Notes under the pieces: generated by a model
Told to the model about the DNA's origin: nothing
What the model saw: only the letters and a program-made list of their open reading frames with translations
Database searches by the model: none
Source of the DNA: Pagrus major
Lineage: Eukaryota; Chordata; Actinopteri; Spariformes; Sparidae
Assembly (NCBI RefSeq): GCF_040436345.1
Contig: NC_133220.1
Span: 3,713,423-3,777,422 of the forward strand
Direction: 5' to 3'
DNA: 64,000 nucleotides
Shown here: positions 5,006 to 46,340 of the stretch, piece after piece
Layout of the letters: each line of letters begins with the position of its first letter
Position numbering within the stretch: the stretch's first letter is position 1
Translations under genes and position numbers: made by a program

Positions 5006-5072
5006 ATGAGGACATCTCTGGATCTTTGTGTTTGTCTGCTGACTCTGTGTGGAACAACACTTGGACAAACCG
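5006..5072 (+). CDS. Block A exon 1, signal peptide
   Basis: The ATG opens 22 codons plus one base, followed by GTAAGA. The encoded peptide is short and hydrophobic with a Gly-Gln-Thr end, as expected for a cleaved signal. This is the only ATG that gives a signal peptide in phase with the V exon. Confidence 0.85.
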
Positions 5073-10867: not shown

Positions 10868-10874
10868 GTGAGAT

Positions 10875-11308: not shown

Positions 11309-11375
11309 ATGAGGACATCTCTGGATCTTTGTGTTTGTCTGCTGACTCTGTGTGGAACAACACTTGGACGAACCG
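11309..11375 (+). CDS. Block B exon 1, signal peptide
   Basis: 67 nt, differing from block A exon 1 by a single Gln-to-Arg change near the end. The donor is GTAAGA. The 5' flank (11054-11308) is clearly more diverged from block A than the downstream introns are. Confidence 0.85.
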
Positions 11376-23300: not shown

Positions 23301-26300
23301 CCCTCATTAAATATGTGGCCTTTGATGCACAGAAAAATGAATCCATTAAAAACATGTAACAAGTTCATAATCTCACCCATTCATTGTGCAAAAAATAATG
23401 TTCCTGTTTATCTTTCAGAACGGCTCTTGAGAGACCGATCAGGAGAAATCCCAGGTGAGTGATGATGTCACTGATCTCTGTACCTGTCAGGTGTGCTACA
23501 ACTCTCTGTGCCTCAGTATCACTCAAAGGTTTTGATACAGTGACTCCATGTAGACGTGTTGTTCTCACAGTGCAGCAGGTTGACATGAGCAGAGGGACAA
23601 CCAGCAGCTGCAGCTTAACAGACATCATGTCAGCTGATCGCTTCAGTGAATCAGCTTTCATTTGGTTCTTTAGTCATAAAAGTCTCCACAATTATTTTAT
23701 TAGATGTAACATCAGAAGCATTTTAACCTTCTGCTAAAAATGTGTCAGATTAATAACTGAGAACTTTCTGAATCCTCACTACAGACACACATGCATGATT
23801 ATAATGTTACTGATCTCTACATCTGCAGTGTTTATCAGCTGTTGAGACACAAACACAAAGTTCAGTCTGATCTACTTGATGTTGTTCAGTCCAGCTGCTG
23901 TTGTGACTGTTAACATCAGACTAAATACACCATGATCCACTGTTTCTATAGAGGCAGTTGCATTCACACTGTCTTCAGCAACATTTTGACTGATCGCTTG
24001 AAGCTGATGTTGCATCTGAGCTTCAGATACTTTTTATTCAGACTGGTACAGAACAGTGAGTGTCAAGTTGCAATTATAACTGAATAAGGGTGTCACGATT
24101 TCGATTTTAAATCAAAATCGATCGAAATTAATTCACAATCTCGAACTTCGAATTAAAAAATGGATCGTTGATGCTGCCACGCCCCCACGTCACGTCCGGT
24201 CGGCTTGCCAAGGGGAAAACACACACGTGTTGAAGTGCTGCAAGTCAACCTCCTCTAACTTAGCTACTAGCTAAGCCGGTAGCTATTAGCTACAGCCAGT
24301 CAAACGATAGCATGGTGTTACACCATTCCTGTTCGGCTCCTGGACCGTGGTCGGGAAGCACAGGGGAGATGATTTCCTCCAGGGCCGAAGTTTCTGTTTA
24401 CCTTCGGGGTGAACCCCCTTTCACGTGTTAAGCTGGTGGGAAATAACACCAGGGAGCTTTGCTGTATGTTGAGGAGCCGTCGCCTTTATTCAGCCAAACT
24501 GCAGCCTATATTGTTCACTTTATTGCTGTCGCTGCTGCTGCTGCTCCTTTCGCTTCTCCTTCCTCTCCCATTCATTCACTGTCCGCACATACGCACGCTC
24601 CCTCTCTCGCTCGCCAACTCACACCTGACGCACCTTGTGTCCAACTGTTGGAAATAGTTTGTTAAGACACTTAATTGTTCAGAGAAGACTGTGGACATGG
24701 CTGTTTAGTTTTTGTGTTTGTTTTGTTGTGAACTTGAATGTCGTCTTCTGTGAAGAAGACTGCCGTTACAAAAGAGAAACTAGATGGCAGATTATTTTGT
24801 TTAAGTTTCCAGTTGACTGAAGATATAAGTTATTGTTACATTATGTTGTTAATAAATGTTTTAAATTTGACAATGTAGTGCGGTACATTGCGAACAAAGG
24901 TCAGATATTATATTGCATAAAAGTCTAGTCTAAAGATGGCGTAGCAACCTGTGCTTTAAAAAAAATAAATATAAAAATCAAGAATCGAATCGAACCGTGA
25001 CCTTAGAATCGAAAATTGAATCGAATCGAGGATTTGGAGGATCGTGACACCCCTGTAACTGAAAGATGTTTTTCTAATAATTATAAGAAACTTCTTGTGA
25101 TTACATGAGTTTTGATCAAAAGCAATCAATGAGCTATGATTCATATTTGATTTCCACTTCACCTGTGTAAAAAGTTAACTTCAGTGTAGGGCTGCAGCTA
25201 ATGTTTCCATTATTAATTAACCTCTTATTATCAGGGTCCAATGTGCCTTTTTCTCCAAACCCAAAGATTTTCAGTTTACAGTGACATAAAGTAGAAAGTG
25301 GTCATGTTTGGTCAGTGGTGATCAGCCTTTTCTGACAAAAAGTCATTTTCATTATTGAAAATAAACTTTTCTCTGATTAGATGAAACTATGGTCAAAACA
25401 AAGCTGATTTTCTGGTTACGTTTCTTGTAAAGAAACAGAATGAGGTAGTCGCTGTCTTTCACATCTTATTACATGCAGACCTGCAGACTGTGCAGTCAGG
25501 GCAGGATTAGGTGAAGACATCAGCACTAATAACAATCACCAGGCAGAAATGTTGGACTGCTTTCCTGATGTACTGCTGTTTCCTATTCCCCTGAGAGGAA
25601 GAGACGAGTTTCGTCAGTTTAACTGGAACTTTGTCTCTGCTGCAGAAAGATGGAAATATTTTGGTAATTCTAATATTTGTTTAGTCTTTAGACTTTTAGA
25701 TGTTTCTTGGCCATTTTCACCTCAGTCACATTCTGTTGATAATCATCCACAAGCTTCTGGTCGTCCTGGCTGAATTTTAACCCCTCCTCTTGAAAGAATC
25801 GGGAAAATTCAACTACATGTGTTGGCTTCCTGGCTCTGACTTGTTTCTTCAGTATAGTCCACATGTTCCTGAGTTATCCAGTCCTTTACCACTTGTGATG
25901 TGTGTTTGGATCATTGTCCTGATGGATCACCCAACTGCACCTAAGAGCCAAATCTTCTGGCTGATGATTTTAGGTTTTACTAAAGAATTTGGAGATGATC
26001 TTTCTTCATTATTCCATTTACTTTCTTTAGAGCAGCAGATCCACTGACAGCAGAACGGCCTCACAGCAGAACACTACCAGCACCATGCTGGACAGTAGGT
26101 TTGGTGTTCTGAGGTTAAAGGCTTCACCGTCTCTCCTCCAAACATGTTGCTGCTCATTGTGGCCAAACAACTCTGCTTTGAAATGGCTCCAAGTGACTTT
26201 ATTGACTTGTTCAAATCAATAATGAGCTCTTTCAGATCAATACTGAGCTCTTTAGACTTTCCCTTTGTAGTGTTTGTGGCTGAGTCTAATGGCTGCATCA

Positions 26301-29300
26301 AACAAGTCCAGAAAAGTCAGCAGCTGTTGTCAATCAGAATCACTCAGAAGAAGTTAAGATGCTACAAAGAACATTTGATTCACACAACTTTCTATAATCA
26401 TCTAAACTGATTGTTCAAGTTACTGTATGTATATTTATGATCCAGCAGATTTGGTCACATTTTCAGAAGACCGATAATAAATTCAGTTTTGAACCAAACT
26501 TCATGAATGTTTTTAGTGACAAAGTAGTCTGTGTTCCACTTATTCATCACAGAAACATGAGAGCTGTAGAAATCATTGGAGCTGAAGGCTGCCATGATGA
26601 ACATGTTCTTTACAAGTGGATGTAAAGTGTTGACCATGACTGTGTTACATCTAAACAGTCACTACAATATGTTTCTGAAAGCATTTTAGGCAGCAATGGG
26701 CAGAGTAGTGACAGACTCTTGGTTCATAGTTGCACCATCGGGTTCAGACAGTTTGATCAGAGTTTGGTGAGATGATCCTCACACGATACAAGAGAGACGG
26801 GCAGCTTTGTCTCCTTCTCAACATCTGACTGTATCTTTGTGTCCGTGGATCAACAGTCTGTAGTTGATATGACAGCCCTGAAATCTGAAGGGTGACGTGT
26901 TTTGGCAGAGTTTTGCAGGTAAAAAGGTGAGGGGGCTCTGGGTGCAGGCAAAATAGAGAGAAGTTTAACATTGTTCATTTGTGTTTAGCACCAACATTGT
27001 AGTGACACAACGCTGGTTGTAAATCTAGTGTGAGCCTCACATTGTGCTTTTCTGCTTCTCTCCTGTCTTCTCTCTTAAACACAGTGTTTCAGTCAGTGAC
27101 GGGATAAAAACAACATGATTACATCACTAGAGCCTTAGTTATACTTGATATCTCACAGTCCAGTAGTAAATGCTGTGCTGCCCTTAATAAGCTGCTGTTT
27201 ATATTGTGTTCACAGGTGCATCTCCAGAGCCACACATCACCGTACTTTATCAAACAAAGGACTTGTCGCTGCTGCAGTGTGAAGTTCGAGGAGCTTTTGC
27301 ACAACCTGAAGTCGAGTGGCAGGACAGCGCTGGAAACATCCTTCCTGCTGAGGAGCCTCCGGTCTCAGAGAGAGGAGGTCGTTACTACGTTACCCTCATC
27401 ACCACTGTGACCAAGACAGGACGCTGCCGCTGTGTAGCCACACAGGAGGACATTAGCCATCAGATTTATTCTGAGACCTACGTTTTTATCAGTGGTGAGA
27501 TTTCTTTCCTGATGGTTTAGTCATCAAATCATTTTCATTGTTCACATGTTATTACATTTACATTCAATTGTTGTTTCTGTGGAGTCTATGTTCAGGGTAA
27601 CAAACATGATATGCAGCAACATTCTGAGTTTGACATTTACTTCTTGTGATGTGTTTCAGAGGACTCATCCAGAGAAGTGGAGCAGTGGAGGTTGGCAGCC
27701 ATACTCCTTGCTGTGGCTGTTGCAGTTTTAGTTCTGGTTGTTGCTGTAATGTGCTGTATATGTAAGTTTATATCATGTATTACACCAACATATCCATCAT
27801 GTGCAGACATCAACATTACAGATACATTGTGTGATACTTTCACGTCCAGACAGTTTGTTTCTGTCGCCTCAGATTTGAACCCTTCTGTTTATTTACATGA
27901 GGCCTCTGGTTCTAATACTGACTGATTAAATTAAAGTTAATCACTTAATTCACTGAACTTCCATCAGACAGACCTGAACATCACTCACTCATGTTCTTTG
28001 TATAGTTCACAAGTGAACATTTGAAAGTGGAGGCTCTACATCCTGAAGCTTTCTGCTGATAAACGTAATTGAGACAAACAAAAAGGCTCATCTAGATACA
28101 AATTAATACCTTTAAAGAGGCGATATGTTGTTTTGTAGAAGTTCAAACTCAGAATTTTAATATTTACAATATTAATGAGTTAATAATGCAAACTGAGAAA
28201 TATGTATTTTCTCCATAAGTGAATAAAGAAGCTGTTCTCAGAGGAAAATTAGGTCCCAGAACACTGTTGGAAGGTAGAAAGGTGGCAGGGTCCGCCACAT
28301 ATAAACAAAGTAAAACAGTATGAAATCGTTTGTTTATTCAGTCATAAAAATAAATCAGTCAATGAAGATCTTTGTCTTCTGATTAAAAGTCTTTCACAAA
28401 ACTACAGAACGCTCCTTTAATCCAGTTTATCATTTAATGAATGATGCTTTGGATTAACTCTCAAAATGGTTTGGTAAAAGACATCTGACTGCAGAAACGG
28501 ACTTAAAACAGACGCACTGGACTCGTTTTCCAGATCTGTAGCTTTAACACTTCTGGTTTGAATGTTGTAGGTCTGAATATGTCAGGCTGTAGCCTTTAAA
28601 GGGACAGTTCAACACTTTAAGTAAAACCCTTACCAGTGTTAGCTTCTTTCACAGAGACTGATGGCTGATTGATTCCACTGTTACATGTCTGTCTGTTGAT
28701 TGTGGAGTTAAACTCAGGAGGTGGTTAGCTTAGCTTAGCATAAAGACTGGAAGCAGAAGGAAACAGACTAAAGTTAGAAATACACCTTCAGCACCAGGCT
28801 AACTGTTTCACCCTGTTTATGGGTTTGATGCTAAAGCTAGGCTAATGGCTTCCTGATTCCATCAGATTCCATATTGATAATGAATGAATTGATTAAGTTA
28901 TGAAGCCAAAGAGCTGAACGTGTTCTGGTATCAGCTCTGTGACTCACAGCTGTTGGTGCTCATTATTAACACTCAGGTATCAAAGTGCTTCATTTGGCAG
29001 CAGAGTGAGTTTGAATTGGATGTTTATAATAATCCTAATATGTAGTGATGAAGCTGAAATCATGACGTGTCATTAAATGTGAGACGGTGATCTAATGTTA
29101 TGTTTGGTGGTCGACCTCAGTGTAACATTGAACATTGAGATTCTTCTGTAAAACAATGAAAGTAAAACTGATGATTTTGCAGGTTATTTTGTGTGGACAA
29201 AGCTTTCTGATGATGATGACGTAAAGCAGCCAGGTAAGTCAGACTTTCAACAAATCCCTCAAAACACACCTCTTCAAAACTTCTTACAATCACCAAAGAA

Positions 29301-32300
29301 GTTTGTTCTCCTCCTCCACTTTCTGATATGTTCCCTTTACTCACAGATTAATTTTCTTTTTTGTTGTTTCCTTTGTTAAGTGACTTTAGTATCTAGAAAA
29401 GCACTATACGTTTAATGTATCATTATTATTATTTACATTACATAAACTTGAGTCACTTTTTTGAATAAATTGTACTTTTCTGAGTAGTTTATTACAGAAT
29501 ACTTTTACTTGAGTAGATTGTCAGCTGGTCCCAGGTCTGCTGCTGCTCTGTTATCTACCACAGCCACGCCTCCACATGACATGAAGCAGGATAATGACTG
29601 AAGCTACAGCAGGAGTTTGGCTTTCTAATAACGCTAACCGCTAATATTCACAGACGCATTAACAACACACAGTACAATGAGCTGCAGAGCATCAGAGAAC
29701 AGAGCTGACACTGAGCTGACAGAGAGCAGTAAGCATGGCGGCAGGAACGAAGGGTGCAGAGGTGCTGCAGCTCCCCTAAAACAAGGCATTATTAAAAACA
29801 CTGATCGATAGGAGTGATCAGACTTGTAGCAGAGACAGAGAGAGAGAGCTCATATGTGGACGAGCAGGAAAGAGGGACAGAAGTGTCCACAGGACTTAAA
29901 ACTGTTGTTGATCATGAAGCGTAAGATTTCTCTACAACTCTGTGATTTGTCAGTCAGGGTCTCTGTGACCAACAGGAAGATCAGCGTTATATTCGCCCCT
30001 CTCCTCTATGAAACGTCTGTATCCTCACTGAGCTGCATTATTATAAACTATGAGGCTGTTTATTCAGGCAGTAACGTGCGTCTCTGTTGAGCCGGTCACA
30101 AGTGAACAGCTCGTCAGTTCCCAGCTGACATTCAACGTCTCAACGTTCATCTCCAGTGACTTGTGATCAGAGGTCACTTCTCTGCTCTGTATACATCACA
30201 TACATACACATACATCAGTGGAAGAAATGAAACTTTGTCTTGTGCACAAAGAATAAAGAACTTCTTCTAAAACCTGCTGAATTAACGACAAGACCCAAAT
30301 AATTAAGGATTCATCATAGTGAGCGTCTCACAAAGTTGATAAAGTTTGTCCAAACTCAACAACTTACAAAACTGAGTGATTTTATAAAGGAGTCTGGTGA
30401 GTTTCTCTCCCTTTTCATCCTCTTCTCTCTCTCTTCATCTCCTTGCTGTAGTATGTTGGTGTTGTAGTTTGCCGTCTGTTGTAGTGCAGGACGTCCTCAA
30501 ATTGTTGTTAATAACTATTTAATATAAGTTTTACTTCTACTTGAGAACTTATTTTTGGCTACTCTACCCACTGAATATGTATTTCTGATTCTGGAGTGAA
30601 CTGTCCCTTTGAGCCAGTTCATCATCTGACATGAGATACTTTACATTAATACTTAGTAATATAAAAGTTGACTTGATGTAATGTAAACTTTTGTTTTGTT
30701 TTCTGCACATTCTCATCTGTGGAAAATGCCTCCTCCAGATGGTCCAGATGAAGACTCGAAAGGTAAGTCACCTCTCACAATGTTTGTTCATAACAAATTA
30801 CATTTACTCAACTTTCAACAAATCCCTCAAAACACACCTCTTCAAAACTTCTTACAATCACCAGAGAAGTTTGTTCTCCTCCTCCACTTTCTGATATGTT
30901 CCCTTTACTCACAGATTAATTTTCTTTTGTGTTGTTTCCTTTGTTAAGTGACTTTAGTATCTAGTAAAGCACTATACGTTTAATGTATCATTATTATTAT
31001 TTACATTACATATACTCGAGTCACTTTTTTGAATAAACTGTACTTTTCTGAGTAGTTTATTACAGAATACTTTTACTTGAGTAGATTGTCAGCTGGTCCC
31101 AGGTCTGCTGCTGCTCTGTTATCTACCACAGCCACGCCTCCACATGACATGAAGCAGGATAATGACTGAAGCTACAGCAGGAGTTTGGCTTTCTAATAAC
31201 GCTAACCGCTAATATTCACAGACGCATTAACAACACACAGTACAATGAGCTGCAGAGCATCAGAGAACAGAGCTGACACTGAGCTGACAGAGAGCAGTAA
31301 GCATGGCGGCAGGAACGAAGGGTGCAGAGGTGCTGCAGCTCCCCTAAAACAAGGCATTATTAAAAACACTGATCGATAGGAGTGATCAGACTTGTAGCAG
31401 AGACAGAGAGAGAGAGAGCTCATATGTGGACGAGCAGGAAAGAGGGACAGAAGTGTCCACAGGACTTAAAAACTGTTGTTGATCATGAAGCGTAAGATTT
31501 CTCTACAACTCTGTGATTTGTCAGTCAGGGTCTCTGTGACCAACAGGAAGATCAGCGTTATATTCGCCCCTCTCCTCTATGAAACGTCTGTATCCTCACT
31601 GAGCTGCATTATTATAAACTATGAGGCTGTTTATTCAGGCAGTAACGTGCGTCTCTGTTGAGCCGGTCACAAGTGAACAGCTCGTCAGTTCCCAGCTGAC
31701 ATTCAACGTCTCAGCGTTCATCTCCAGTGACTTGTGATCAGAGGTCACTTCTCCGCTCTGTATACATCACATACATACACATACATCAGTGGAAGAAATT
31801 AAACTTTGTCTTGTGCACAAAGAATAAAGAACTTCTTCTAAAACCTGCTGAATTAATGACAAGACCCAAATAATTAAGGATTCATCATAGTGAGCGTCTC
31901 ACAAAGTTGATAAAGTTTGTCCAAACTCAACAACTTACAAAACTGAGTGATTTTATAAAGGAGTCTGGTGAGTTTCTCTCCCTTTTCATCCTCTTCTCTC
32001 TCTCTTCATCTCCTTGCTGTAGTATGTTGGTGTTGTAGTTTGCCGTCTGTTGTAGTGCAGGACGTCCTCAAATTGTTGTTAATAACTATTTAATATAAGT
32101 TTTACTTCTACTTGAGAACTTATTTTTGGCTACTCTACCCACTGAATATGTATTTCTGATTCTGGAGTGAACTGTCCCTTTGAGCCAGTTAATCATCTGA
32201 CATGAGATCCTTTACATTAATACTTAGTAATATAAAAGTTGACTTGATGTAATGTGTACTTTTGTTTTGTTTTCTGCACATTCTCATCTGTGGAAAATGC

Positions 32301-35300
32301 CTCCTCCAGATGATCCAGATGGTCCAGAGGAAGACTCGAAAGGTAAGTCACCTCTCACAATGTTGGTTCATAACAAATTACATTTACTCAACTTTCAACA
32401 AATCCCTCAAAACACACCTCTTCAAAACTTCTTACAATCACCAGAGAAGTTTGTTCTCCTCCTCCACTTTCTGATATGTTCCCTTTACTCACAGATTAAT
32501 TTTCTTTTTTGTTGTTTCCTTTGTTAAGTGACTTTAGTATCTAGAAAAGCACTATACGTTTAATGTATCATTATTATTATTATTTACATTACATATACTT
32601 GAGTCCCTTTTTTGAATAAACTGTACTTTTCTGAGTAGTTTATTACAGAATACTTTTACTTGAGTAGATTGTCAGCTGGTCCCAGGTCTGCTGCTGCTCT
32701 GTTATCTACCACAGCCACGCCTCCACATGACATGAAGCAGGATAATGACTGAAGCTACAGCAGGAGTTTGGCTTTCTAATAACGCTAACCGCTAATATTC
32801 ACAGACGCATTAACAACACACAGTACAATGAGCTGCAGAGCATCAGAGAACAGAGCTGACACTGAGCTGACAGAGAGCAGTAAGCATGGCGGCAGGAACG
32901 AAGGGTGCAGAAGTGCTGCAGCTCCCCTAAAACAAGGCATTATTAAAAACACTGATCGATAGGAGTGATCAGACTTGTAGCAGAGAGACAGAGAGAGAGA
33001 GCTCATATGTGGACGAGCAGGAAAGAGGGACAGAAGTGTCCACAGGACTTAAAACTGTTGTTGATCATGAAGCGTAAGATTTCTCTACAACTCAGTGATT
33101 TGTCAGTCAGGGTCTCTGTGACCAACAGGAAGATCAGCGTTATATTCGCCCCTCTCCTCTATGAAACGTCTGTATCCTCACTGAGCTGCATTATTATAAA
33201 CTATGAGGCTGTTTATTCAGGCAGTAACGTGCGTCTCTGTTGAGCCGGTCAGGCTGTAACCTTTAACAGTTCAACACTTTATTTAATACCATCACCAGTA
33301 TTAGACTCAGGAGGTGGTTAGCTTAGCTTAGCATAAAGACTGGAAGAAGAAGGAAACAGACTAAAGTTAGAAATACACCTTCAGCACCAGGCTAACTGTT
33401 TCACCCTGTTTATGGGTTTGATGCTAAAGCTCGGCTAATGGCTTCCTGATCCCATCAGACTCCATATTGATAATGAATGAATTGATTAAGTTATGAAGCC
33501 AAAGAGCTGAACATGTTCTGGTATCAGCTCTGTGACTCACAGCTGTTGGTGCTCATTATTAACACTCAGGTGTCAAAGTGCTTCATTTGGCAGCAGAGTG
33601 AGTTTGAATTGGATGTTTATAATAATCCTAATATGTAGTGATGAAGCTGAAATCATGACGTGTCATTAAATGTGAGACGGTGATCTAATGTTATGTTTGG
33701 TGGTCGACCTCAGTGTAACATTGAACATTGAGATTCTTCTGTAAAACAACGAAAGTAAAACTGAAACCGTTCAGAGCAACTTTTCACTCTCCATTCTTGA
33801 CTGTTTGAAAACAGACTTTTAAAAGATGATACAAACATTAAAATCTGCACCAAAATCATTTCTGTGTGATATAAAAGTTGACTTTCTATAATGTAAACTT
33901 TTGTTTTCTGCAGTGTCTGTGGTGCAAATGCCTCCTACAGAGGATTCAGATGAAGACTCGAAAGGTAAGTCCCCTCTCACAATGTTGGTTCGTAACAAAT
34001 TACTTTTACTCCACTTTCAACAAATCCCTCAAAACACACCTCTTCAAAACTTCTTACAATCACCAGAGAAGTTTGTTCTCCTCCTCCACTTTCTGATATG
34101 TTCCCTTTACTCACTAATTATTTTCTTTTTTTGTTGTTTCCTTTGTTAAGTGACTTTAGTATCTAGAAAAGCACTATACGTTTAATGTATCATTATTATT
34201 ATTTACATTACATATACTTGAGTCAGTTTTTTGAATAAACTGTACTTTTCTGAGTAGTTTATTACAGAATACTTTTACTTGAGTAGATTGTCAGCTGGTC
34301 CCAGGTCTGCTGCTGCTCTGTTATCTACCACAGCCACGCCTCCACATGACATGAAGCAGGATAATGACTGAAGCTACAGCAGGAGTTTGGCTTTCTAATA
34401 ACGCTAACCGCTAATATTCACAGACGCATTAACAACACACAGTACAATGAGCTGCAGAGCATCAGAGAACAGAGCTGACACTGAGCTGACAGAGAGCAGT
34501 AAGCATGGCGGCAGGAACGAAGGGTGCAGAGGTGCTGCAGCTCCCCTAAAACAAGGCATTATTAAAAACACTGATCGATAGGAGTGATCAGACTTGTAGC
34601 AGAGAGACAGAGAGAGAGAGAGCTCATATGTGGACGAGCAGGAAAGAGGGACAGAAGTGTCCACAGGACTTAAAAACTGTTGTTGATCATGAAGCGTAAG
34701 ACTTCCCTACAACTCTGTGATTTGTCAGTCAGGGTCTCTGTGACCAACAGGAAGATCAGCGTTATATTCGCCCCTCTCCTCTATGAAACGTCTGTATCCT
34801 CACTGAGCTGCATTATTATAAACTATGAGGCTGTTTATTCAGGCAGTAACGTGCGTCTCTGTTGAGCCGGTCAGGCTGTAACCTTTAACAGTTCAACACT
34901 TTAAGTATTAACATCACCAGTATTAGACTCAGGAGGTGGTTAGCTTAGCTTAGCACAAAGTAATGGAAGCAGGAGGAAACAGACTAAAGTTAGAAATACA
35001 CCTTCAGCACCAGGCTAACTGTTTCACCCTGTTTATGGGTTTGATGCTAAAGCTCGGCTAATGGCTTCCTGATCCCATCAGACTCCATATTGATAATGAA
35101 TGAATTGATTAAGTTATGAAGCCAAAGAGCTGAACATGTTCTGGTATCAGCTCTGTGACTCACAGCTGTTGGTGCTCATTATTAACACTCAGGTGTCAAA
35201 GTGCTTCATTTGGCAGCAGAGTGAGTTTGAATTGGATGTTTATAATAATCCTAATATGTAGTGATGAAGCTGAAATCATGACGTGTCATTAAATGTGAGA

Positions 35301-38300
35301 CGGTGATCTAATGTTATGTTTGGTGGTCGACCTCAGTGTAACATTGAACATTGAGATTCTTCTGTAAAACAACGAAAGTAAAACTGAAACCGTTCAGAGC
35401 AACTTTTCACTCTCCATTCTTGACTGTTTGAAAACAGACTTTTAAAAGATGATACAAACATTAAAATCTGCACCAAAATCATTTCTGTGTGATGTAAAAG
35501 TTGACTTTCTGTAATGTAAACTTTTGTTTTCTGCAGTGTCTGTGGTGCAAATGCCTCCTACAGAGGATTCAGATGAAGACTCGAAAGGTAAGTCCCCTCT
35601 CAGCAATGTTGGTTCGTAACAAATGACTTTTACTCAACTTTCAACAAATCCCTCAAAACACACCTCTTCAAAACTTCTTACAATCACCAGAGAAGTTTGT
35701 TCTCCTCCTCCACTTTCTGATATGTTCCCTTTACTCACTAATTATTTTCTTTTTTTGTTGTTTCCTTTGTTAAGTGACTTTAGTATCTAGAAAAGCACTA
35801 TACGTTTAATGTATCATTATTATTATTTAACAATTCATCATAGTGAGCGTCTCACAAAGTTGATAAAGTTTGTCCAAACTCAACAACTTACAAAACTGAG
35901 TGATTTTATAAAGGAGTCTGGTGAGTTTCTCTCCCTTTTCATCCTCTTCTCTCTCTTCATCTCCTTGCTGTAGTATGTTGGTGTTGTAGTTTGCCGTCTG
36001 TTGTAGTGCAGGACGTCCTCTAATTGTTGTTAATAACTATTAAATATAAGTTTTACTTCTACTTGAGAACTTATTTTTGGCTACTCTACCCACTGAATAT
36101 GTATTTCTGATTCTGCAGTGAACTGTCCCTTTGAGCCAGTTAATCATCTGACATGAGATACTTTACATTAATACTTAGTAATATAAAAGTTGACTTGATG
36201 TAATGTAAACTTTTGTTTTGTTTTCTGCAGATTATCATCCGTGGAAAATGCCTCATCCAGATGATCAAGAGGAAGACTGGAACGGTAAGTCACCTCTCAG
36301 CAATGTTGGTTCGTAACAAATTACTTTTACTCCACTTTCAAAAATCCCTCAAAACACACCTCTTCAAAACTTCTTACAATCACCAGAGAAGTTTGTTCTC
36401 CTCCTCCACTTTCTGATATGTTCCCTTTACTCACAGATTAATTTTCTTTTTTTGTTGTTTCCTTTGTTAAGTGACTTTAGTATCTAGAAAAGCACTATAC
36501 GTTTAATGTATCATTATTATTATTTACATTACATATACTTGAGTCAGTTTTTTGAATAGATTGTACTTTTCTGAGTAGTTTATTACAGAATACTTTTACT
36601 TGAGTAGATTGTCAGCTGGTCCCAGGTCTGCTGCTGCTCTGTTATCTACCACAGCCACGCCTCCACATGACATGAAGCAGGATAATGACTGAAGCTACAG
36701 CAGGAGTTTGGCTTTCTAATAACGCTAACCGCTAATATTCACAGACGCATTAACAACACACAGTACAATGAGCTGCAGAGCATCAGAGAACAGAGCTGAC
36801 ACTGAGCTGACAGAGAGCAGTAAGCATGGCGGCAGGAACGAAGGGTGCAGAGGTGCTGCAGCTCCCCTAAAACAAGGCATTATTAAAAACACTGATCGAT
36901 AGGAGTGATCAGACTTGTAGCAGAGACAGAGAGAGAGAGAAAACAGACTTTTAAAAGATGATGCAAACATTAAAATCTGCACCAAAATCATTTCTGTGTG
37001 ATGTAAAAGTCGACTTTCTTTAATGTCAACTTTTGTTTTGTTTTCTGCAGATTCACGATGGAGAAGGCGTCGTCGTGGTGATCCAGGGATTAACTCATCA
37101 GGTAAGTCTCCTCTCAGCAATGTTGGTTCATAACAAACGACATTTATTTCACTTTCAACAAATCCCTCAAAACACACCTCTTCAAAACTTCTTACAATCA
37201 CCAGAGAAGTTTGTTCTCCTCCTCCACTTTCTGATATGTTCCCTTTACTCACAGATTCATTTTCTTTCTTTTTTGTTGTTTCCTTTGTTAAGTGACTTTA
37301 GTATCTAGTAAAGCACTATACGTTTGATGTATCATTATTATTATTTACATTACATATACCTGAGTCACTTTTTTGAATAAACTGTACTTTTCTGAGTAGT
37401 TTACTACAGAATACTTTTACTTGAGTAGATTGTCAGCTGGTCCCAGGTCTGCTGCTGCTCTGTTATCTACCACAGCCACGCCTCCACATGACATGAAGCA
37501 GGATAATGACTGAAGCTACAGCAGGAGTTTGGCTTTCTAATAACGCTAACCGCTAATATTCACAGACGCATTAACAACACACAGTACAATGAGCTGCAGA
37601 GCATCAGAGAACAGAGCTGACACTGAGCTGACAGAGAGCAGTAAGCATGGCGGCAGGAACGAAGGGTGCAGAGGTGCTGCAGCTCCCCTAAAACAAGGCA
37701 TTATTAAAAACACTGATCGATAGGAGTGATCAGACTTGTAGCAGAGAGACAGAGAGAGAGAGAGCTCATATGTGGACGAGCAGGAAAGAGGGACAGAAGT
37801 GTCCACAGGACTTAAAAACTGTTGTTGATCATGAAGCGTAAGATTTCTCTACAACTCTGTGATTTGTCAGTCAGGGTCTCTGTGACCAACAGGAAGATCA
37901 GCGTTATATTCGCCCCTCTCCTCTATGAAACGTCTGTATCCTCACTGAGCTGCATTATTATAAACTATGAGGCTGTTTATTCAGGCAGTAACGTGCGTCT
38001 CTGTTGAGCCGGTCAGGCTGAAACCTTTAACAGTTCAACACTTTAAGTAATACCATCACCAGTATTAGACTCAAGAGGTGGTTAGCTTAGCTTAGCATAA
38101 AGACTGGAAGCAGAAGGAAACAGACTAAAGTTAGAAATACACCTTCAGCACCAGGCTAACTGTTTCACCCTGTTTATGGGTTTGATGCTAAAGCTAGGCT
38201 AATGGCTTCCTGATTCCATCAGATTCCATATTGATAATGAATGAATTGATTAAGTTATGAAGCCAAAGAGCTGAACGTGTTCTGGTATCAGCTCTGTGAC

Positions 38301-41300
38301 TCACAGCTGTTGGTGCTCATTATTAACACTCAGGTGTCAAAGTGCTTCATTTGGCAGCAGAGTGAGTTTGAATTGGATGTTTATAATAATCCTAATATGT
38401 AGTGATGAAGCTGAAATCATGACGTGTCATTAAATGTGAGACGGTGATCTAATGTTTTGTTTGGTGGTCGACCTCAGTGTAACATTGAACATTGAGTTTC
38501 TTCTGTAAAACAATGAAAGTAAAACTGAAACCGTTCAGAGCAACTTTTCACTCTCCATTCTTGACTGTTTGAAAACAGACTTTTAAAAGATGATACAAAC
38601 ATTAAAATCTGCACCAAAATCATTTCTGTGTGATGTAAAAGTCGACTTTCTGTAATGTAAACTTTTGTTTTCTGCAGTGTCTGTGGTGCAAATGCCTCCT
38701 ACAGAGGATTCAGAGGAAGACTCGAAAGGTAAGTCACCTCTCACAATGTTGGTTCGTAACAAATTACTTTTACTCCACTTTCAAAAATCCCTCAAAACAC
38801 ACCTCTTCAAAACTTCTTACAATCACCAGAGAAGTTTGTTCTCCTCCTCCACTTTCTGATATGTTCCCTTTACTTGCTAATTATTTTCTTTTGTTGTTGT
38901 TTCCTTTGTTAAGTGACTTTAGTATCTAGAAAAGCACTATACATTTAATGTATCATTATTATTATTTACATTACATATACTCGAGTCACTTTTTTGAATA
39001 AACTGTACTTTTCTGAGTAGTTTATTACAGAATACTTTTACTTGAGTAGATTGTCAGCTGGTCCCAGGTCTGCTGCTGCTCTGTTATCTACCACAGCCAC
39101 GCCTCCACATGACATGAAGCAGGATAATGACTGAAGCTACAGCAGGAGTTTGGCTTTCTAATAACGCTAACCGCTAATATTCACAGACGCATTAACAACA
39201 CACAGTACAATGAGCTGCAGAGCATCAGAGAACAGAGCTGACACTGAGCTGACAGAGAGCAGTAAGCATGGCGGCAGGAACGAAGGGTGCAGAGGTGCTG
39301 CAGCTCCCCTAAAACAAGGCATTATTAAAAACACTGATCGATAGGAGTGATCAGACTTGTAGCAGAGACAGAGAGAGAGAGAAAACAGACTTTTAAAAGA
39401 TGATGCAAACATTAAAATCTGCACCAAAATCATTTCTGTGTGATGTAAAAGTCGACTTTCTTTAATGTCAACTTTTGTTTTGTTTTCTGCAGATTCACGA
39501 TGGAGAAGGCGTCGTCGTGGTGATCCAAGGATTAACTCATCAGGTAAGTCACCTCTCACAATGTTGGTTCATAACAAATTACATTTACTCCACTTTCAAC
39601 AAATCCCTCAAAACACACCTCTTCAAAACTTCTTACAATCACCAAAGAAGTTTGTTCTCCTCCTCCACTTTCTGATATGTTCCCTTTACTCACAGATTAA
39701 TTTTCTCTTTTTGTTGTTTCCTTTGTTAAGTGACTTTAGTATCTAGAAAAGCACTATACGTTTAATGTATCATTATTATTATTTACATTACATATACTTG
39801 AGTCCCTTTTTTGAATGAATTGTACTTTTCTGAGTAGTTTATTACAGAATACTTTTACTTGAGTAGATTGTCAGCTGGTCCCAGGTCTGCTGCTGCTCTG
39901 TTATCTACCACAGCCACGCCTCCACATGACATGAAGCAGGATAATGACTGAAGCTACAGCAGGAGTTTGGCTTTCTAATAACGCTAACCGCTAATATTCA
40001 CAGACGCATTAACAACACACAGTACAATGAGCTGCAGAGCATCAGAGAACAGAGCTGACACTGAGCTGACAGAGAGCAGTAAGCATGGCGGCAGGAACGA
40101 AGGGTGCAGAGGTGCTGCAGCTCCCCTAAAACAAGGCATTATTAAAAACACTGATCGATAGGAGTGATCAGACTTGTAGCAGAGAGACAGAGAGAGAGAG
40201 AGCTCATATGTGGACGAGCAGGAAAGAGGGACAGAAGTGTCCACAGGACTTAAAAACTGTTGTTGATCATGAAGCGTAAGATTTCTCTACAACTCTGTGA
40301 TTTGTCAGTCAGGGTCTCTGTGACCAACAGGAAGATCAGCGTTATATTCGCCCCTCTCCTCTATGAAACGTCTGTATCCTCACTGAGCTGCATTATTATA
40401 AACTATGAGGCTGTTTATTCAGGCAGTAACGTGCGTCTCTGTTGAGCCGGTCAGGCTGAAACCTTTAACAGTTCAACACTTTAAGTAATAACATCACCAG
40501 TATTAGACTCAGGAGGTGGTTAGCTTAGCTTAGCACAAAGTACTGGAAGCAGAAGGAAACAGACTAAAGTTAGAAATACACCTTCAGCACCAGGCTAACT
40601 GTTTCACCCTGTTTATGGGTTTGATGCTAAAGCTCGGCTAATGGCTTCCTGATCCCATCAGACTCCATATTGATAATGAATGAATTGATTAAGTTATGAA
40701 GCCAAAGAGCTGAACATGTTCTGGTATCAGCTCTGTGACTCACAGCTGTTGGTGCTCATTATTAACACTCAGGTGTCAAAGTGCTTCATTTGGCAGCAGA
40801 GTGAGTTTGAATTGGATGTTTATAATAATCCTAATATGTAGTGATGAAGCTGAAATCATGACGTGTCATTAAATGTGAGACGGTGATCTAATGTTATGTT
40901 TGGTGGTCGACCTCAGTGTAACATTGAACATTGAGATTCTTCTGTAAAACAATGAAAGTAAAACTGAAACCGTTCAGAGCAACTTTTCACTCTCCATTCT
41001 TGACTGTTTGAAAACAGACTTTTAAAAGATGATACAAACATTAAAATCTGCACCAAAATCATGTCTGTGTGATGTAAAAGTCGACTTTCTATAATGTCAA
41101 CTTTTGTTTTCTGCAGTGTCTGTGGTGTAAATGCCTCCTACAGAGGATTCAGATGAAGACTCGAAAGGTAAGTCCCCTCTCACAATGATGGTTCGTAACA
41201 AATGACTTTTACTCCACTTTCAACAAATCCCTCAAAACACACCTCTTCAAAACTTCTTACAATCACCAGAGAAGTTTGTTCTCCTCCTCCACTTTCTGAT

Positions 41301-42732
41301 ATGTTCCCTTTACTCACTAATTATTTTCTTTTTTGTTGTTTCCTTTGTTAAGTGACTTTAGTATCTAGAAAAGCACTATACATTTAATGTATCATCATTA
41401 TTATTTACATTACATATACTTGAGTCCCTTTCTTGAATAAATTGTACTTTTCTGAGTAGTTTATTACAGAATACTTTTACTTGAGTAGATTGTCAGCTGG
41501 TCCCAGGTCTGCTGCTGCTCTGTTATCTACCACAGCCACGCCTCCACATGACATGAAGCAGGATAATGACTGAAGCTACAGCAGGAGTTTGGCTTTCTAA
41601 TAACGCTAACCGCTAATATTCACAGACGCATTAACAACACACAGTACAATGAGCTGCAGAGCATCAGAGAACAGAGCTGACACTGAGCTGACAGAGAGCA
41701 GTAAGCATGGCGGCAGGAACGAAGGGTGCAGAGGTGCTGCAGCTCCCCTAAAACAAGGCATTATTAAAAACACTGATCGATAGGAGTGATCAGACTTGTA
41801 GCAGAGAGACAGAGAGAGAGAGAGCTCATATGTGGACGAGCAGGAAAGAGGGACAGAAGTGTCCACAGGACTTAAAAACTGTTGTTGATCATGAAGCGTA
41901 AGATTTCTCTACAACTCTGTGATTTGTCAGTCAGGGTCTCTGTGACCAACAGGAAGATCAGCGTTATATTCGCCCCTCTCCTCTATGAAACGTCTGTATC
42001 CTCACTGAGCTGCATTATTATAAACTATGAGGCTGTTTATTCAGGCAGTAACGTGCGTCTCTGTTGAGCCGATCAGGCTGTAACCTTTAACAGTTCAACA
42101 CTTTAAGTGATACCATCACCAGTATTAGACTCAGGAGGTGGTTAGCTTAGCTTAGCATAAAGACTGGAAGCAGAAGGAAACAGACTAAAGTTAGAAATAC
42201 ACCTTCAGCACCAGGCTAACTGTTTCACCCTGTTTATGGGTTTGATGCTAAAGCTAGGCTAATGGCTTCCTGATCCCATCAGACTCCATATTGATAATGA
42301 ATGAATTGATTAAGTTATGAAGCCAAAGAGCTGAACATGTTCTGGTATCAGCTCTGTGACTCACAGCTGTGATTGCTCTGTGATCATTATTAACAGTTGA
42401 GTTTGAAATAGATGTTTATAATAATCCTGACAGGAAGTGATGGAAGCTGAAATCTTGACATAATTAAATGTGAGTCAGTGATTTAACAGGTTGAGGATTT
42501 ATGTTTGGTGGTCGAGTTCAGAGTCGTCTTTAAAACACACTGACTGAAACCATTCAGATAAATCTTTCACTCTCCATTACTGACTGTTTGAAACAGACTT
42601 CAGAAAGATGAAACAAACATTAAAATCTTTGTTGTTCTGTTTAATATAAAGGTTGATTCTGCATAATGCATACTTTTGTTTTCTGCAGGTGCCCATGGAG
42701 GTGGAGGAGGTGATGATGGATGTGATGAATAG
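11309..42732 (+). CDS. Block B: butyrophilin/B7-like transmembrane receptor with expanded tail exons
   Basis: Core exons: 11309-11375 (signal), 21804-22133 (V), 23419-23454 (linker), 27216-27494 (C), 27660-27761 (transmembrane), 29183-29233 (first tail exon) and 42689-42732 (last exon, stop TAG 42730-42732). These sum to 909 nt, a 302-aa receptor. Between the last two lie nine further small tail exons, 30709 to 41167, all phase 1, so any subset keeps frame. The V domain has Cys40, Trp55 and YSC116; the C domain ends TGRCRC. The protein should be a type I surface receptor. No ITIM or ITAM is visible in the tail; it is mostly acidic and Ser-rich, with Arg-rich alternatives. An endogenous retrovirus on the opposite strand fills most of intron 1. 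The orthologue is not determined. Confidence 0.8.
11514..11861 (-). repeat. Retroviral 3' LTR
   Basis: 348 bp. Read on the minus strand it begins TGTAATGG and ends TTCCACA. An AATAAA signal for minus-strand transcripts lies at 11584-11589. It matches 19370-19717 with about two substitutions by eye. Confidence 0.93.
11862..11873 (-). other. Polypurine tract
   Basis: On the minus strand AAAAGGGAGGAG abuts the start of the 3' LTR, the expected place for plus-strand primer generation. Confidence 0.85.
12366..12735 (-). pseudogene. env: Truncated env remnant
   Basis: The minus-strand frame extends 12366-12815 and overlaps the integrase end in another frame, as env does in gammaretroviruses. It encodes a hydrophobic leader (about 20 residues, CLVGITVIIVVPILWA) and the start of a surface subunit with several N-glycosylation sites. 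It then stops. Only about 500 bp remain before the polypurine tract, with no recognisable transmembrane subunit, fusion peptide or immunosuppressive-type region. The product could not work as an envelope protein. The start is taken at the Met in MERRQRP (about 12702), though upstream Mets exist. Confidence 0.7.
12806..13942 (-). pseudogene. pol: Retroviral integrase segment of pol
   Basis: A continuous 378-codon frame. It has an N-terminal zinc-binding HHCC pattern (His47, His51, Cys78, Cys81), the catalytic core Asp of MMDFIEL (residue 113), Asp of SSDNSTPF and Glu of ERENGTLK, and a C-terminal GPY/F-like segment (KWNGPF). It is in a different frame from the RNase H segment, which ends at 14016, so one frame change separates them. 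Within itself this segment has no stop. Confidence 0.85.
14016..15581 (-). pseudogene. pol: Reverse transcriptase (palm onward) and RNase H segment of pol
   Basis: A 521-codon frame containing the RT palm with YVDD at about residues 68-71, then connection and RNase H with DGSAS, AAELVAL, TDSRYA and ARADAA, the four acidic catalytic positions. It is in the same frame as the upstream piece (15588-16508) but cut off from it by a TAG at 15588-15590. It ends with a frame change to integrase. Confidence 0.85.
15588..16508 (-). pseudogene. pol: Reverse transcriptase N-terminal segment of pol
   Basis: Carries the fingers region of RT (PVRTPIFLVKK, EWRFVQDLQVVND, VPNPYTIL) and ends at a premature TAG immediately before the catalytic VDLANAFFSV region. 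It lies in a different frame from the protease segment; the frame change is near 16500. Confidence 0.8.
16500..17095 (-). pseudogene. pro: Retroviral protease segment, in frame with gag after a TGA
   Basis: The frame directly continues gag after its TGA at 17096-17098 and contains the aspartic protease motif LVDSGATHS and the flap-side ILGRDLM-like INLLGRDLM. Past about 16500 the frame reads nonsense because the true pol frame shifts. The arrangement fits translation by stop-codon suppression, as known for gammaretroviruses; here the stop is UGA, not UAG. Confidence 0.8.
17096..18735 (-). pseudogene. gag: gag (matrix, capsid, nucleocapsid), frame-broken
   Basis: Starts with MGGKSSKNQ at 18735, a likely N-myristoylation signal. 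The matrix frame (to 18253) and the capsid/nucleocapsid frame (about 18313 to 17096) differ, with a frame change around 18250-18400 near a Pro-rich stretch. The second part contains a capsid-like region and one CCHC zinc knuckle (C-x2-C-x4-H-x4-C, 17135-17176) after an Arg/Gly-rich run. Gag ends in TGA 17096-17098. Confidence 0.85.
18736..19345 (-). other. Proviral leader (untranslated)
   Basis: About 600 bp between the primer-binding site and gag. It should hold splice donor and packaging sequences, but I cannot point to them with confidence. Confidence 0.4.
19346..19363 (-). other. Primer-binding site, tRNA-Leu type
   Basis: The plus strand here reads ATCCCACTTCTGACACCA, matching the 3' end of a leucine tRNA with CCA as I recall it. 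It sits 6 nt from the 5' LTR on the minus strand. Confidence 0.7.
19370..19717 (-). repeat. Retroviral 5' LTR
   Basis: 348 bp with TG...CA ends. AATAAA for minus-strand transcripts is at 19440-19445. Two differences from the other LTR were seen (ATAAAC against ATAATC near the left end, and AGAAGC against AGAGGC in the middle). Confidence 0.93.
19718..21803 (+). other. Block B intron 1, part right of the provirus
   Basis: Follows block A intron 1 from about 5317 with few differences, including the 15-bp tandem repeat (20833-20886) and the 113-codon open frame (21357-21698). No exon recognised. Confidence 0.6.
20833..20886. repeat. 15-bp tandem repeat, block B copy
   Basis: Same array as 6403-6456, with the second unit changed to ATCATAAATTATGTG. 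Confidence 0.7.
21804..22133 (+). CDS. Block B exon 2, V-type Ig domain
   Basis: 330 nt, phase 1 to 1, CAG acceptor and GTGAGT donor. It keeps the V-set Cys, Trp and DSGTYSC signature. Replacements relative to block A include GQV to EKL, RP to LT, ID to KG and SY to FI. They cluster in short runs while both flanking introns are nearly identical. Confidence 0.9.
22398..22545 (+). mobile_element. tRNA-derived SINE
   Basis: 148 bp flanked by the perfect 11-bp duplication TGAACAGTGTG (22387-22397 and 22546-22556). It has a box A-like TGGCTCAGGGGTAGAG and box B-like GGTTCGATTCC, then a body and the tail GCGTCTGCTAAATG. That tail also occurs in the 3' end of the LINE at 62334-62347, which suggests the SINE uses such a LINE for mobilisation. 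Confidence 0.9.
22557..23418. other. Block B intron 2 remainder
   Basis: Sequence absent from block A, probably an old insertion of unknown type, followed from about 23290 by the shared CTCATTAAATATGTGGCC segment and intron end. No exon seen. Confidence 0.4.
23419..23454 (+). CDS. Block B exon 3, 12-codon linker
   Basis: 36 nt encoding ERLLRDRSGEIP between TTTCAG and GTGAGT. Four residues differ from block A. Confidence 0.8.
24085..25055. mobile_element. hAT-like non-autonomous element, copy 2
   Basis: A 971-bp insertion with 8-bp duplication TAACTGAA (24077-24084 and 25056-25063) and ends TAAGGGTGTCACGATT / CAGGGGTGTCACGATC. The empty site is in block A near 9614. The right half matches copy 1; the left-middle (24165-24600) is different, so the two copies are distinct subfamily members or internally rearranged. 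Confidence 0.85.
25240..26301 (-). pseudogene. Tc1-like transposon relic (block B)
   Basis: On the minus strand 26301-26170 encodes a Tc1-type N-terminus (KGKSKELSIDLKELIIDLNK, then KSLGAISK). Downstream pieces read as degenerate later transposase segments in changing frames, including LFGHNEQQHVWRRDGEAF. Many stops make it inactive. The equivalent insertion in block A is largely deleted. Confidence 0.7.
26637..27215 (+). other. Intron segment before block B C exon, present in three copies
   Basis: Almost identical to about 10014-10591 and 1912-2495. No exon. It ends in TTGTGTTCACAG before each C-type exon. Confidence 0.7.
27216..27494 (+). CDS. Block B exon 4, C-type Ig domain
   Basis: 279 nt, phase 1 to 1. 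It has LLQCEV, VEWQDS and then TGRCRCVAT, where the usual tyrosine two residues before the conserved Cys is replaced by an extra Cys (block A has GHYRC). Donor GTGAGA. Confidence 0.9.
27660..27761 (+). CDS. Block B exon 5, transmembrane segment
   Basis: 102 nt, phase 1 to 1. A short hydrophilic stem (EDSSREVEQWR) is followed by about 22 hydrophobic residues rich in Ala, Val and Leu ending in VMCCI. The donor GTAAGT splits a Cys codon. Without splicing the frame runs on to 27925, a possible intron-retention tail that I consider less likely. Confidence 0.88.
28114..28418 (+). mobile_element. MITE-like element, copy 3
   Basis: Plus-strand relative of the element at 379-714, with decayed ends (AAAGAGGCG ... 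GCTCCTTT) and the shared core GGCAGGGTCCGCCAC at about 28286. Confidence 0.6.
29183..29233 (+). CDS. Block B tail exon 1
   Basis: 51 nt between TTTTGCAG and GTAAGT. With the split codon it encodes C-YFVWTKLSDDDDVKQP, an acidic membrane-proximal segment. Its sequence is unlike the later tail exons, but the DNA after its donor is the same LINE fragment. Confidence 0.7.
29245..29440 (+). mobile_element. 5'-truncated LINE 3' end, first of the array copies
   Basis: Just after the donor the sequence encodes QIPQNTPL in one frame and KSLKTHLFKTS in another. The latter resembles the C-terminal KRLKTHLFRLHLDTA of the LINE at 62.6 kb. It ends with an (ATT)n tail. Copies follow the other tail-exon donors (about 30785, 32365, 33985, 35610, 36305, 37125, 38750, 39565, 41190), so the insertion predates array growth. 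Confidence 0.65.
30709..30762 (+). CDS. Block B tail exon 2, acceptor mutated to AC
   Basis: 54 nt by homology to 36231-36284, encoding DSHLWKMPPPDGPDEDSK. The acceptor reads TTTTCTGCAC, not TTTTCTGCAG, so normal splicing to this edge should fail. An AG inside (CTCCAG, 30737-30738) would leave a 24-nt exon, 30739-30762, still phase 1. Status uncertain. Confidence 0.45.
32280..32342 (+). CDS. Block B tail exon 3, acceptor mutated to AC
   Basis: 63 nt, like exon 2 with an in-frame 9-nt expansion (DDPDGPEEDSK end). The acceptor is again TTTTCTGCAC. An internal AG at 32308-32309 would give a 33-nt phase-1 exon, 32310-32342. Confidence 0.45.
33914..33964 (+). CDS. Block B tail exon 4 (V type)
   Basis: 51 nt, TTCTGCAG acceptor and GTAAGT donor, encoding VSVVQMPPTEDSDEDSK. 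The SDED segment fits a casein kinase 2 type acidic phosphorylation site (family knowledge; function is inference). Confidence 0.65.
35537..35587 (+). CDS. Block B tail exon 5 (V type)
   Basis: Identical in sequence to tail exon 4, with intact splice sites. Confidence 0.65.
36231..36284 (+). CDS. Block B tail exon 6 (P type, intact acceptor)
   Basis: 54 nt encoding DYHPWKMPHPDDQEEDWN, with a proper TTCTGCAG acceptor. This shows what the two AC-acceptor copies upstream should look like. It carries one of the few tail tyrosines. Confidence 0.65.
37051..37101 (+). CDS. Block B tail exon 7 (Arg-rich)
   Basis: 51 nt encoding DSRWRRRRRGDPGINSS, strongly basic in contrast to the acidic neighbours. 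Intact CTGCAG acceptor and GTAAGT donor. The preceding spacer is truncated (0.8-kb module). Confidence 0.65.
38678..38728 (+). CDS. Block B tail exon 8 (V type)
   Basis: 51 nt encoding VSVVQMPPTEDSEEDSK; one Asp-to-Glu difference from exons 4 and 5. Intact splice sites. Confidence 0.65.
39493..39543 (+). CDS. Block B tail exon 9 (Arg-rich)
   Basis: 51 nt, the same peptide as tail exon 7 except Gly-to-Arg-type drift at one codon (GATCCAAGG against GATCCAGGG). It is part of the 2.44-kb higher-order duplication. Confidence 0.65.
41117..41167 (+). CDS. Block B tail exon 10 (V type with stop)
   Basis: Splice sites are intact, but the Gln codon of VSVVQ is TAA (41128-41130). If spliced in, it ends the protein at ...VSVV; if skipped, translation reaches the last exon. 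It could be a decayed copy or a regulated alternative C-terminus. Confidence 0.55.
42689..42732 (+). CDS. Block B last coding exon
   Basis: Acceptor TTCTGCAG, then GAHGGGGGDDGCDE and TAG at 42730-42732, in phase with all tail exons. A 3' untranslated region with a long GT repeat follows. No clear nearby AATAAA. Confidence 0.7.
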
Positions 42733-45800: not shown

Positions 45801-46340
45801 TTCATAGAAGAGAATAAAGGTTTTACATAATAAGTGGTGCCAAGGTTACAGCTGTACATAAACAGTCATGTAGAATATCAACTGCCTCATTGGCACATAT
45901 GTTTTATGTGCAGCCTACAATATAACCTAATAAACAAAGACAACTAAGTCCAAATCAAACAGTGCGTCTCACGCTCTGCCACAGCTGACCGACCTCCCGC
46001 TGAGTTCGGGCTGGATATCAACAGACTCTGCAGACTGTTTCACCAGCAGGCTGAATGACAGAGTACAGTGTTCACATCGACTTGGCGCCAGCTTAACTGC
46101 GATGTATACAGCTGGGACCGATGACTTTCAGTGACCATTTGAACGGAGTGTGGAATGAAGGAAATACTCGATAACAAGTGTCACAAGTTGGGATCCTCTA
46201 ACCGCTCCTCCAGCACATCTGGACCCTCGCCAGTTGAAATGAACACCAGTTAAGCTGTCACACCGGTCGGGGCGCAGACTTCCTCGGGTCACAACACACG
46301 ACATATGGCGAGTGGCTACAGGAGGCAACCAGCCCCCCCT
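42843..46340. other. 3' flank and intergenic region
   Basis: Holds dispersed repeats: about 43660-43950 is a common teleost repeat (ACACAAAAACAGATCTCC type); 45008-45365 is a LINE end; 45600-45680 a CA-rich microsatellite. No splice-supported exon is visible; short open frames here look random. Confidence 0.45.
45008..45365 (+). mobile_element. LINE 3' end fragment
   Basis: Encodes KKRRYRRSFIPTAIRLFNSS then a stop, resembling the C-terminus of fish non-LTR retrotransposon ORF2 proteins. A 3' untranslated part with TTTCCCCGTTGTGGGA follows, ending near AATAAACTGAATTAA. Related tails occur at about 51700-51760. Confidence 0.6.

Follow-up and report, generated by a model that had tools for sequence, protein, structure and literature searches.

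Immune receptors have been studied mostly for variation in their outer, ligand-binding part. A butyrophilin-like gene of Pagrus major raises the question of whether the opposite end of such a receptor is varied too: behind its transmembrane exon lies a series of small exons, each beside near-identical intron sequence. Are these exons real coding cassettes of the cytoplasmic tail, or passengers of an expanding intron repeat? We examined the window, a stretch of 64,000 nucleotides (C6:3713423-3777422) of one genome (786 Mb in 25 contigs), together with 120 kb of flanking DNA on its left and 100 kb on its right. Our comparisons point, with moderate confidence, to coding cytoplasmic-tail cassettes; recombination between homogenised introns would have multiplied and reordered them while the exons themselves were kept divergent.

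As read from the window sequence, the receptor gene, on the plus strand, opens with a signal-peptide exon at 11309 and closes with a stop codon at 42732 (Table 1). The first-pass annotation had assigned it to the butyrophilin/B7-like class, and domain searches bore this out. Pfam recognised an N-terminal V-set domain (48 bits, cut-off 26) and a second Ig domain of the butyrophilin type, C2-set_3 (32.1 bits, cut-off 27), and the best sequence matches in the PDB were CD276 and BTN3A/BTN1A1, with the CD276 and BTN3A alignments spanning both Ig domains. The gene shares an IgV plus C2-set_3 ectodomain and a single transmembrane segment with mammalian BTN1/2/3; unlike them, it has no C-terminal B30.2 domain of the classical butyrophilin kind, a short terminal exon closing the coding sequence at 42732. 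The only plus-strand ORF of more than 150 aa in the whole window (53638-54129) lies past the receptor stop, and neither AATAAA nor ATTAAA occurs between 42730 and 44500. Intron 1 holds a recent provirus-like insertion with 348-bp direct repeats at both flanks (99.4% identical) and with RT, RNase H and MLV-type integrase domains recognised by Pfam, each in separate ORFs; a gag-type zinc finger scored below the Pfam cut-off.

Table 1. Features of the receptor gene, its tail-exon array and its plus-strand paralogs, in window coordinates (negative values lie left of the window start).
Feature	Position	Strand	Basis or remark
Signal-peptide exon MRTSLDLCVCLLTLCGTTLGRT	11309..11375	+	donor GTAAGA, phase 1; paralogs headed by similar signal exons, 83-100% identical
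Provirus-like insertion, intron 1, antisense to receptor gene	11514..19717	-	direct repeats and domains
IgV exon	21804..22133	+	sequence, Pfam V-set
Spacer exon ERLLRDRSGEIP, 36 nt	23419..23454	+	sequence
IgC exon, butyrophilin C2-set_3 type	27216..27494	+	sequence, Pfam
Transmembrane exon	27660..27761	+	sequence
First tail exon T0 YFVWTKLSDDDDVKQP	29183..29233	+	sequence
Intron block P, reference copy	29244..30098	+	follows each of ten tail exons; truncated in three introns
Intron block Q, reference copy	30099..30655	+	precedes B-class exons
Tail exon B1	30709..30762	+	acceptor AC, not AG; in-frame internal acceptor would leave 30739-30762 (24 nt)
Tail exon B2	32280..32342	+	acceptor AC, not AG; in-frame internal acceptor would leave 32310-32342 (33 nt)
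Intron block S, reference copy	33252..33865	+	precedes A-class exons, partly T0; shortened before R; partly diverged before terminal exon
Tail exon A1, acidic class	33914..33964	+	sequence
Tail exon A2, acidic class	35537..35587	+	sequence
Tail exon B3, AG acceptor intact	36231..36284	+	sequence
Tail exon R1, polybasic class	37051..37101	+	sequence
Tail exon A3, acidic class	38678..38728	+	sequence
Tail exon R2, polybasic class	39493..39543	+	sequence
Tail exon A4, acidic class	41117..41167	+	in-frame TAA 41128-41130
Terminal coding exon GAHGGGGGDDGCDE	42689..42732	+	stop TAG 42730-42732
Signal exons of paralogs a, b, c, d	-103080, -68883, -48239, -20320	+	sequence
Terminal exons of the five genes	-90630, -53658, -39059, -2123, 42689	+	

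After the transmembrane exon come ten small tail exons (T0 plus nine) between 29183 and 41167, and then the terminal exon at 42689. This layout was as first described: the tail exons are 51, 54 or 63 nt long, all ten lengths are divisible by 3 with phase 1 at both ends, every donor is GTAAGT (10/10), and the introns between them measure 643-1576 bp. Three classes recur behind T0, and the exons line up as T0 B B A A B R A R A followed by the terminal exon. Class A is acidic and Ser-rich (VSVVQMPPTEDSDEDSK; net charge -4), class B reads D.H.WKMP.., and class R is polybasic (DSRWRRRRRGD; net charge +4 or +5). An exact-pattern search of the whole genome returned three matches, all inside this array.

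The further claim that any combination of these exons keeps the reading frame did not survive. A4 carries an in-frame TAA, and B1 and B2, whose acceptor sites read tgcAC, would need internal acceptors; in both, the first downstream AG lies 30 nt inside the exon, in frame. Given the lost acceptor AG, the DSHLWKMPPP stretch of the B1 and B2 copies may be non-coding. The array therefore offers six fully intact cassettes after T0 (A1, A2, B3, R1, A3 and R2) rather than ten interchangeable ones. Inclusion of A4 would truncate the tail, and mRNA decay would not be certain to follow, since the A4 stop is only 37 nt upstream of the last exon junction and decay obeys a 50-55 nt rule.

Similar arrays occur in four more plus-strand paralogs (a, b, c and d), none of them more than 103.1 kb left of where the window begins. 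Each has an IgV, an IgC and a transmembrane exon (in gene d the acceptor of the latter reads TTTCAG/AGTACTTATCC), tail exons set in P/S intron modules, and a terminal exon; a pattern search found the spacer exon in c, d and the window gene (f) and matched none in a or b. Tail exons number three in a, two in b, three in c, three in d and ten in f, which makes the window array the largest of the five found in this tandem family. These 21 exons are 45-63 nt long, although four B-class copies would be 24 or 33 nt if internal acceptors were used; all 21 have a GTAAGT donor and 17 an AG acceptor. With every length divisible by 3 (21/21) and 20 of 21 exons open, the four additional arrays strengthen the original idea of an array of frame-neutral tail exons and speak against a chance pattern. 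The exons without an acceptor AG are all of class B (B1, B2, b2 and c2), are spread over three genes, and have their first downstream AG at +30, in frame, in 4/4 cases. On reading by eye, the IgV exons of genes a and c have also lost their usual AG, and the next one, 6 nt on, keeps the frame. The Arg-rich class, assigned by eye, is represented by six exons in genes a, c, d and f, four of the five, and so is not the accident of a single copy. The C-terminal peptides read in the phase-1 frame (GFLLLRS, GFL, GAQ, GFPLLGSLTQN and GAHGGGGGDDGCDE) are distinct in each of the five genes, so the end of the tail varies as well.

Just upstream of the window gene lies a truncated paralog (5006-10869, plus strand) with a signal exon at 5006, an IgV exon at 7382 and an IgC exon at 10592; no transmembrane or tail exon was seen between these and the next signal exon. 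Its transcripts might encode a secreted product or be spliced into the next gene. Partial IgC exons missing their 5' part recur at 2515-2682 in the window and at -22165 and -106412, the first of them behind a 594-bp intron block that is 99.5% identical to the block preceding the intact IgC.

Tail-exon arrays are an already known kind of structure in butyrophilin relatives, and larger ones exist. The first-pass view that an array of such size is undescribed fails on the chicken BG genes, also of the butyrophilin family, whose cytoplasmic tails are built from 13 to 36 small exons in phase 1, about 21 nt long (sometimes 18 or 24), with a split first codon and in 57 sequence groups; selection on tail variation and alternative splicing or read-through are reported as well (PMC4046983, PMC5938342). 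A few cytoplasmic heptad repeats are also described for mammalian butyrophilins (PMC4046983). Like the BG region, our locus is a tandem cluster of butyrophilin-family Ig receptors with many small phase-1 tail exons that form sequence groups and vary in number among paralogs. BG genes have heptads of a presumed coiled-coil, one IgV and 13-36 exons per gene; here we found neither 21-nt heptad exons nor a single-IgV ectodomain but exons of 45-63 nt without 7-residue units, IgV plus IgC, and 2-10 tail exons per gene, Pro/acidic or Arg-rich in most, each inside a homogenised module of about 0.7-1.6 kb. What sets this locus apart is the length and chemistry of its exons, the host group, the large and homogenised modules, and how strongly the tail exons contrast with the introns. 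Among the matches listed by literature searches that were thin in subscription journals, there was no report of tail-exon arrays in fish butyrophilins, and those listed on introns more conserved than exons included nothing that describes this arrangement.

The chicken genes, in which exon number varies from gene to gene (PMC4046983), also provide the precedent for an alternative to which we assign a substantial minority share of our belief. All intact cassettes may always be spliced in, array length would then be a copy-number trait, and diversity would lie between genes or individuals as in chicken BG. Such a constitutively long tail would fit the uniform GTAAGT donors and pyrimidine-rich acceptors; it sits less easily with the mixed acceptor states and with the A4 stop, which, near the 3' end, would truncate the tail of the window gene. 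Under our preferred reading of amplified and reshuffled cassettes, alternative splicing could perhaps include them to varying degrees, and it is plausible that one receptor would yield many tails by splicing.

The introns of the window array are assembled from three blocks, P, Q and S (Table 1), and copies of P are 97.4-99.0% identical to the reference. Although these modules had been described as LINE-containing, none of five module ORFs had a Pfam match (E 0.1), which leaves coding-level LINE content unsupported. Of six distinct intron gaps, two are divisible by 3. Introners (intron-generating elements) were set aside, because the exons themselves are repeated and every phase is 1.

Exons do not share this uniformity. 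When the 21 tail exons were compared pairwise (210 pairs), identity averaged 0.739 in the exon, 0.866 in the upstream 40 bp and 0.950 in the downstream 190 bp, with shuffled tail exons giving 0.626 under the same gap-permitting alignment. Exon identity was lower than that of the downstream flank in 202/210 of these non-independent pairs and lower than that of both flanks in 167/210. R2 and A4, for example, agree at 22/51 exon positions, at 92/95 aligned bases in the 100 bp upstream and at 283/298 in the 300 bp downstream (45/50 plus 238/248). In ten chosen pairs of nearest homologues, exons were 7-22% different, with 54 amino-acid-changing against 6 silent codon differences; the exon rate exceeded the flank rate in 10/10, with Fisher p <0.05 in six and >0.05 in four. 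Between B1 and B3, 8/8 differences change the amino acid. A related pattern, ASSET, is known from snake toxin genes, where paralog introns are highly similar beside exon segments that differ strongly and alter surface charge (PMC2474615). There the contrast lies between genes for secreted toxins; here it lies between exons of one intracellular tail as well as between paralogs.

These comparisons bear directly on a second alternative, which we regard as unlikely: that the exon is a decaying by-product, taken along when a tandem repeat residing in the intron expanded by unequal crossing-over, most copies being skipped or dying and the tail being effectively T0 plus the terminal exon. The stop in A4, the lost acceptors of B1 and B2 and the high, recent identity of the modules are compatible with decay. 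So are the within-class copies of the window (A1-A4, R1-R2), whose exons are no more conserved than their introns and so give no sign of purifying selection on each copy. Neutral copies, however, should diverge as introns do, and neutral drift after duplication would not yield tail exons several times more diverged than the introns on both sides. Lengths divisible by 3 and intact donors in all 21 exons of five genes also speak against it, as does a lost B acceptor that is common to three genes and leaves its first AG in frame at +30 in every case.

In variability the inner tail roughly equals or exceeds the outer domains: the ten chosen tail-exon pairs are 7-22% different, IgV 6-14% and IgC 7-13%. 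IgV exons differed by 5.9-9.9% and the 300 bp upstream by 1.0-2.3% (6/10 pairs; the four gene c pairs, with a non-homologous upstream flank, were left out), and IgC exons by 6.8-12.9% against 0.7-3.1% upstream (6/10 pairs, leaving out four gene b pairs on the same ground). On the 3' side the 300 bp after IgV were 3.0-17.2% different (six pairs without gene c) and the flank after IgC 5.2-9.0% (10 pairs), both near or above exon level in most. Transmembrane exons, for which dN/dS and flank values exclude the gene d rows, showed no clear excess over their own flanks. An ASSET-like arrangement of similar introns and dissimilar exon segments was thus found at the tail exons and was weaker or absent at the transmembrane exon and the 3' side of IgV and IgC.

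The truncated gene differs from the window gene at 35/276 positions in IgC and 3/578 in the preceding intron (Fisher 4e-15), and at 21/330 in IgV and 48/2057 in intron 1 (Fisher 2.6e-4). Over ten non-independent pairs, codon differences were 219 changing to 22 silent in IgV and 200 to 44 in IgC, and dN exceeded dS in 8/10 IgV pairs and in 8/10 IgC pairs, by a margin that was often small in IgC. Even silent sites in both domains tend to be more diverged than the homogenised introns just before them, and amino-acid selection is therefore probably not a sufficient explanation by itself. Introns have probably been homogenised around exons that were held apart, or exon segments have been exchanged or old ones retained, or both.

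Several marks in the array are relevant to recombination. The last intron is about 98% identical to the other copies as far as about 42370 and about 78% beyond. This diverged stretch is a family property and not local noise, as the terminal blocks of genes a, b, c and d (in d, the last 231 bp only) match the one at 42400-42690 with 92.2-99.7% identity. The P/S join recurs at the same block coordinates in five window introns and the join of P to the shortened S in two, as expected if each join arose once and was then amplified. R2 has a mixed pattern of similarity: it matches R1 at 50/51 exon bases and 100/100 bases upstream, while its first ~396 aligned bases downstream show 4 mismatches to B2 and 14 to R1 (Fisher p 0.018, uncorrected, for a contrast chosen after looking). 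Extending the comparison to 640 bp gives 8 against 17 mismatches, with B3 no more distant from R2 than B2 is; at 1400 bp the contrast has weakened to 21 against 30 difference columns. That the array is an assembly artefact, a repeat collapsed or expanded from mis-joined alleles, we consider very improbable: a 13.5-kb run of near-identical modules is hard to assemble, but the window contains no N, the modules can be told apart by their junctions, deletions and private substitutions, their non-identical copies and varying unit structure argue against a simple assembly duplicate, and four paralogs carry separate arrays.

The T0, R, A and B classes probably share a common ancestor. Among 15 comparisons by shuffling (p uncorrected), the number of 1000 shuffles that reached the observed score was 2 for T0-B1, 0 for T0-B3, 1 for B1-R1, 2 for B3-R1, and 0 for both B1-A1 and B3-A1; support was weak or absent for T0-R (18), A-R (31), T0-A (54) and the comparisons of the terminal exon (39 to 679), which these tests tied to no tail-exon class. 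As they do tie T0, R and A to B, we rejected the idea that the tail exons are unrelated captures from elsewhere.

Returning to coding cassettes reshuffled by recombination, we propose the following mechanism. Because all tail exons found share the same phase, have lengths divisible by 3 and lie beside near-identical intron modules, unequal crossing-over or gene conversion can add, remove or exchange a module and normally leaves the frame intact. Recombination between modules would shift cassette number and order. The introns around the tail exons have been homogenised and the exons have not; selection for differing tails would hold the exons apart, and the mainly amino-acid-changing substitutions between nearest pairs are consistent with such selection. 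The cell-internal end of the receptor thus looks like a part being varied. If expressed, the array could be used to ask whether hosts under pathogen pressure vary the output of their receptors, and it would be a clear natural example of exons that remain divergent amid homogenised introns.

With cassettes included to varying degrees, the destination of the receptor or its intracellular binding would be set by the two charged classes, the acidic and Ser-rich A exons and the polybasic R exons. The R cassette would presumably act as an Arg-based ER-retention signal or a phosphoinositide contact, and the A cassette as a putative CK2/acidic-cluster sorting motif. A trafficking switch is the function we prefer, given the opposite charge classes and the splice-dependent Arg ER-retention motifs known elsewhere (PMC9830214). 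In TMEM63B, a small in-frame exon of 39 nt (exon 4) adds an Arg-based (RXR) ER-retention signal, as shown experimentally, and the same text cites a splice-dependent RXR cassette in the GluN1 C-terminus (PMC9830214). TMEM63B has a single cassette of demonstrated function; the window gene has repeated cassettes with a putative role.

A bolder reading, which we hold only tentatively and think rather doubtful, is that the locus forms a germline system in which hypervariable, frame-neutral cassettes of opposite charge, set in homogenised and reshuffling-prone intron modules, would be read out by combinatorial splicing. If this were true, one receptor family would vary its signalling or trafficking output and not only its ligand binding.

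We also rejected the idea that the minus-strand relatives, which lie on both sides, carry an array of this kind, since in the two members with resolved tails the tail is a single short exon. To the right of the window gene we found no P, Q or S block, and on the minus strand only one 45-bp piece of S. One of these relatives (window 59298-49149, minus strand) consists of IgV, two IgC exons, a transmembrane exon and one short tail exon; by tblastn and by-eye reading, its last exon, DEEKREPQSEPNSSTSLKESS, recurs almost unchanged at the end of a sister copy near -33171. The tails of the two are almost the same although their transmembrane regions are only 60% identical. The window also contains a GC-rich minisatellite at 46332-46934 (49-bp unit, 12.3 copies, 97% matches) and, at its edge (63237-63998, minus strand), an RVT_1 domain (124 bits) that is possibly a retroelement fragment.
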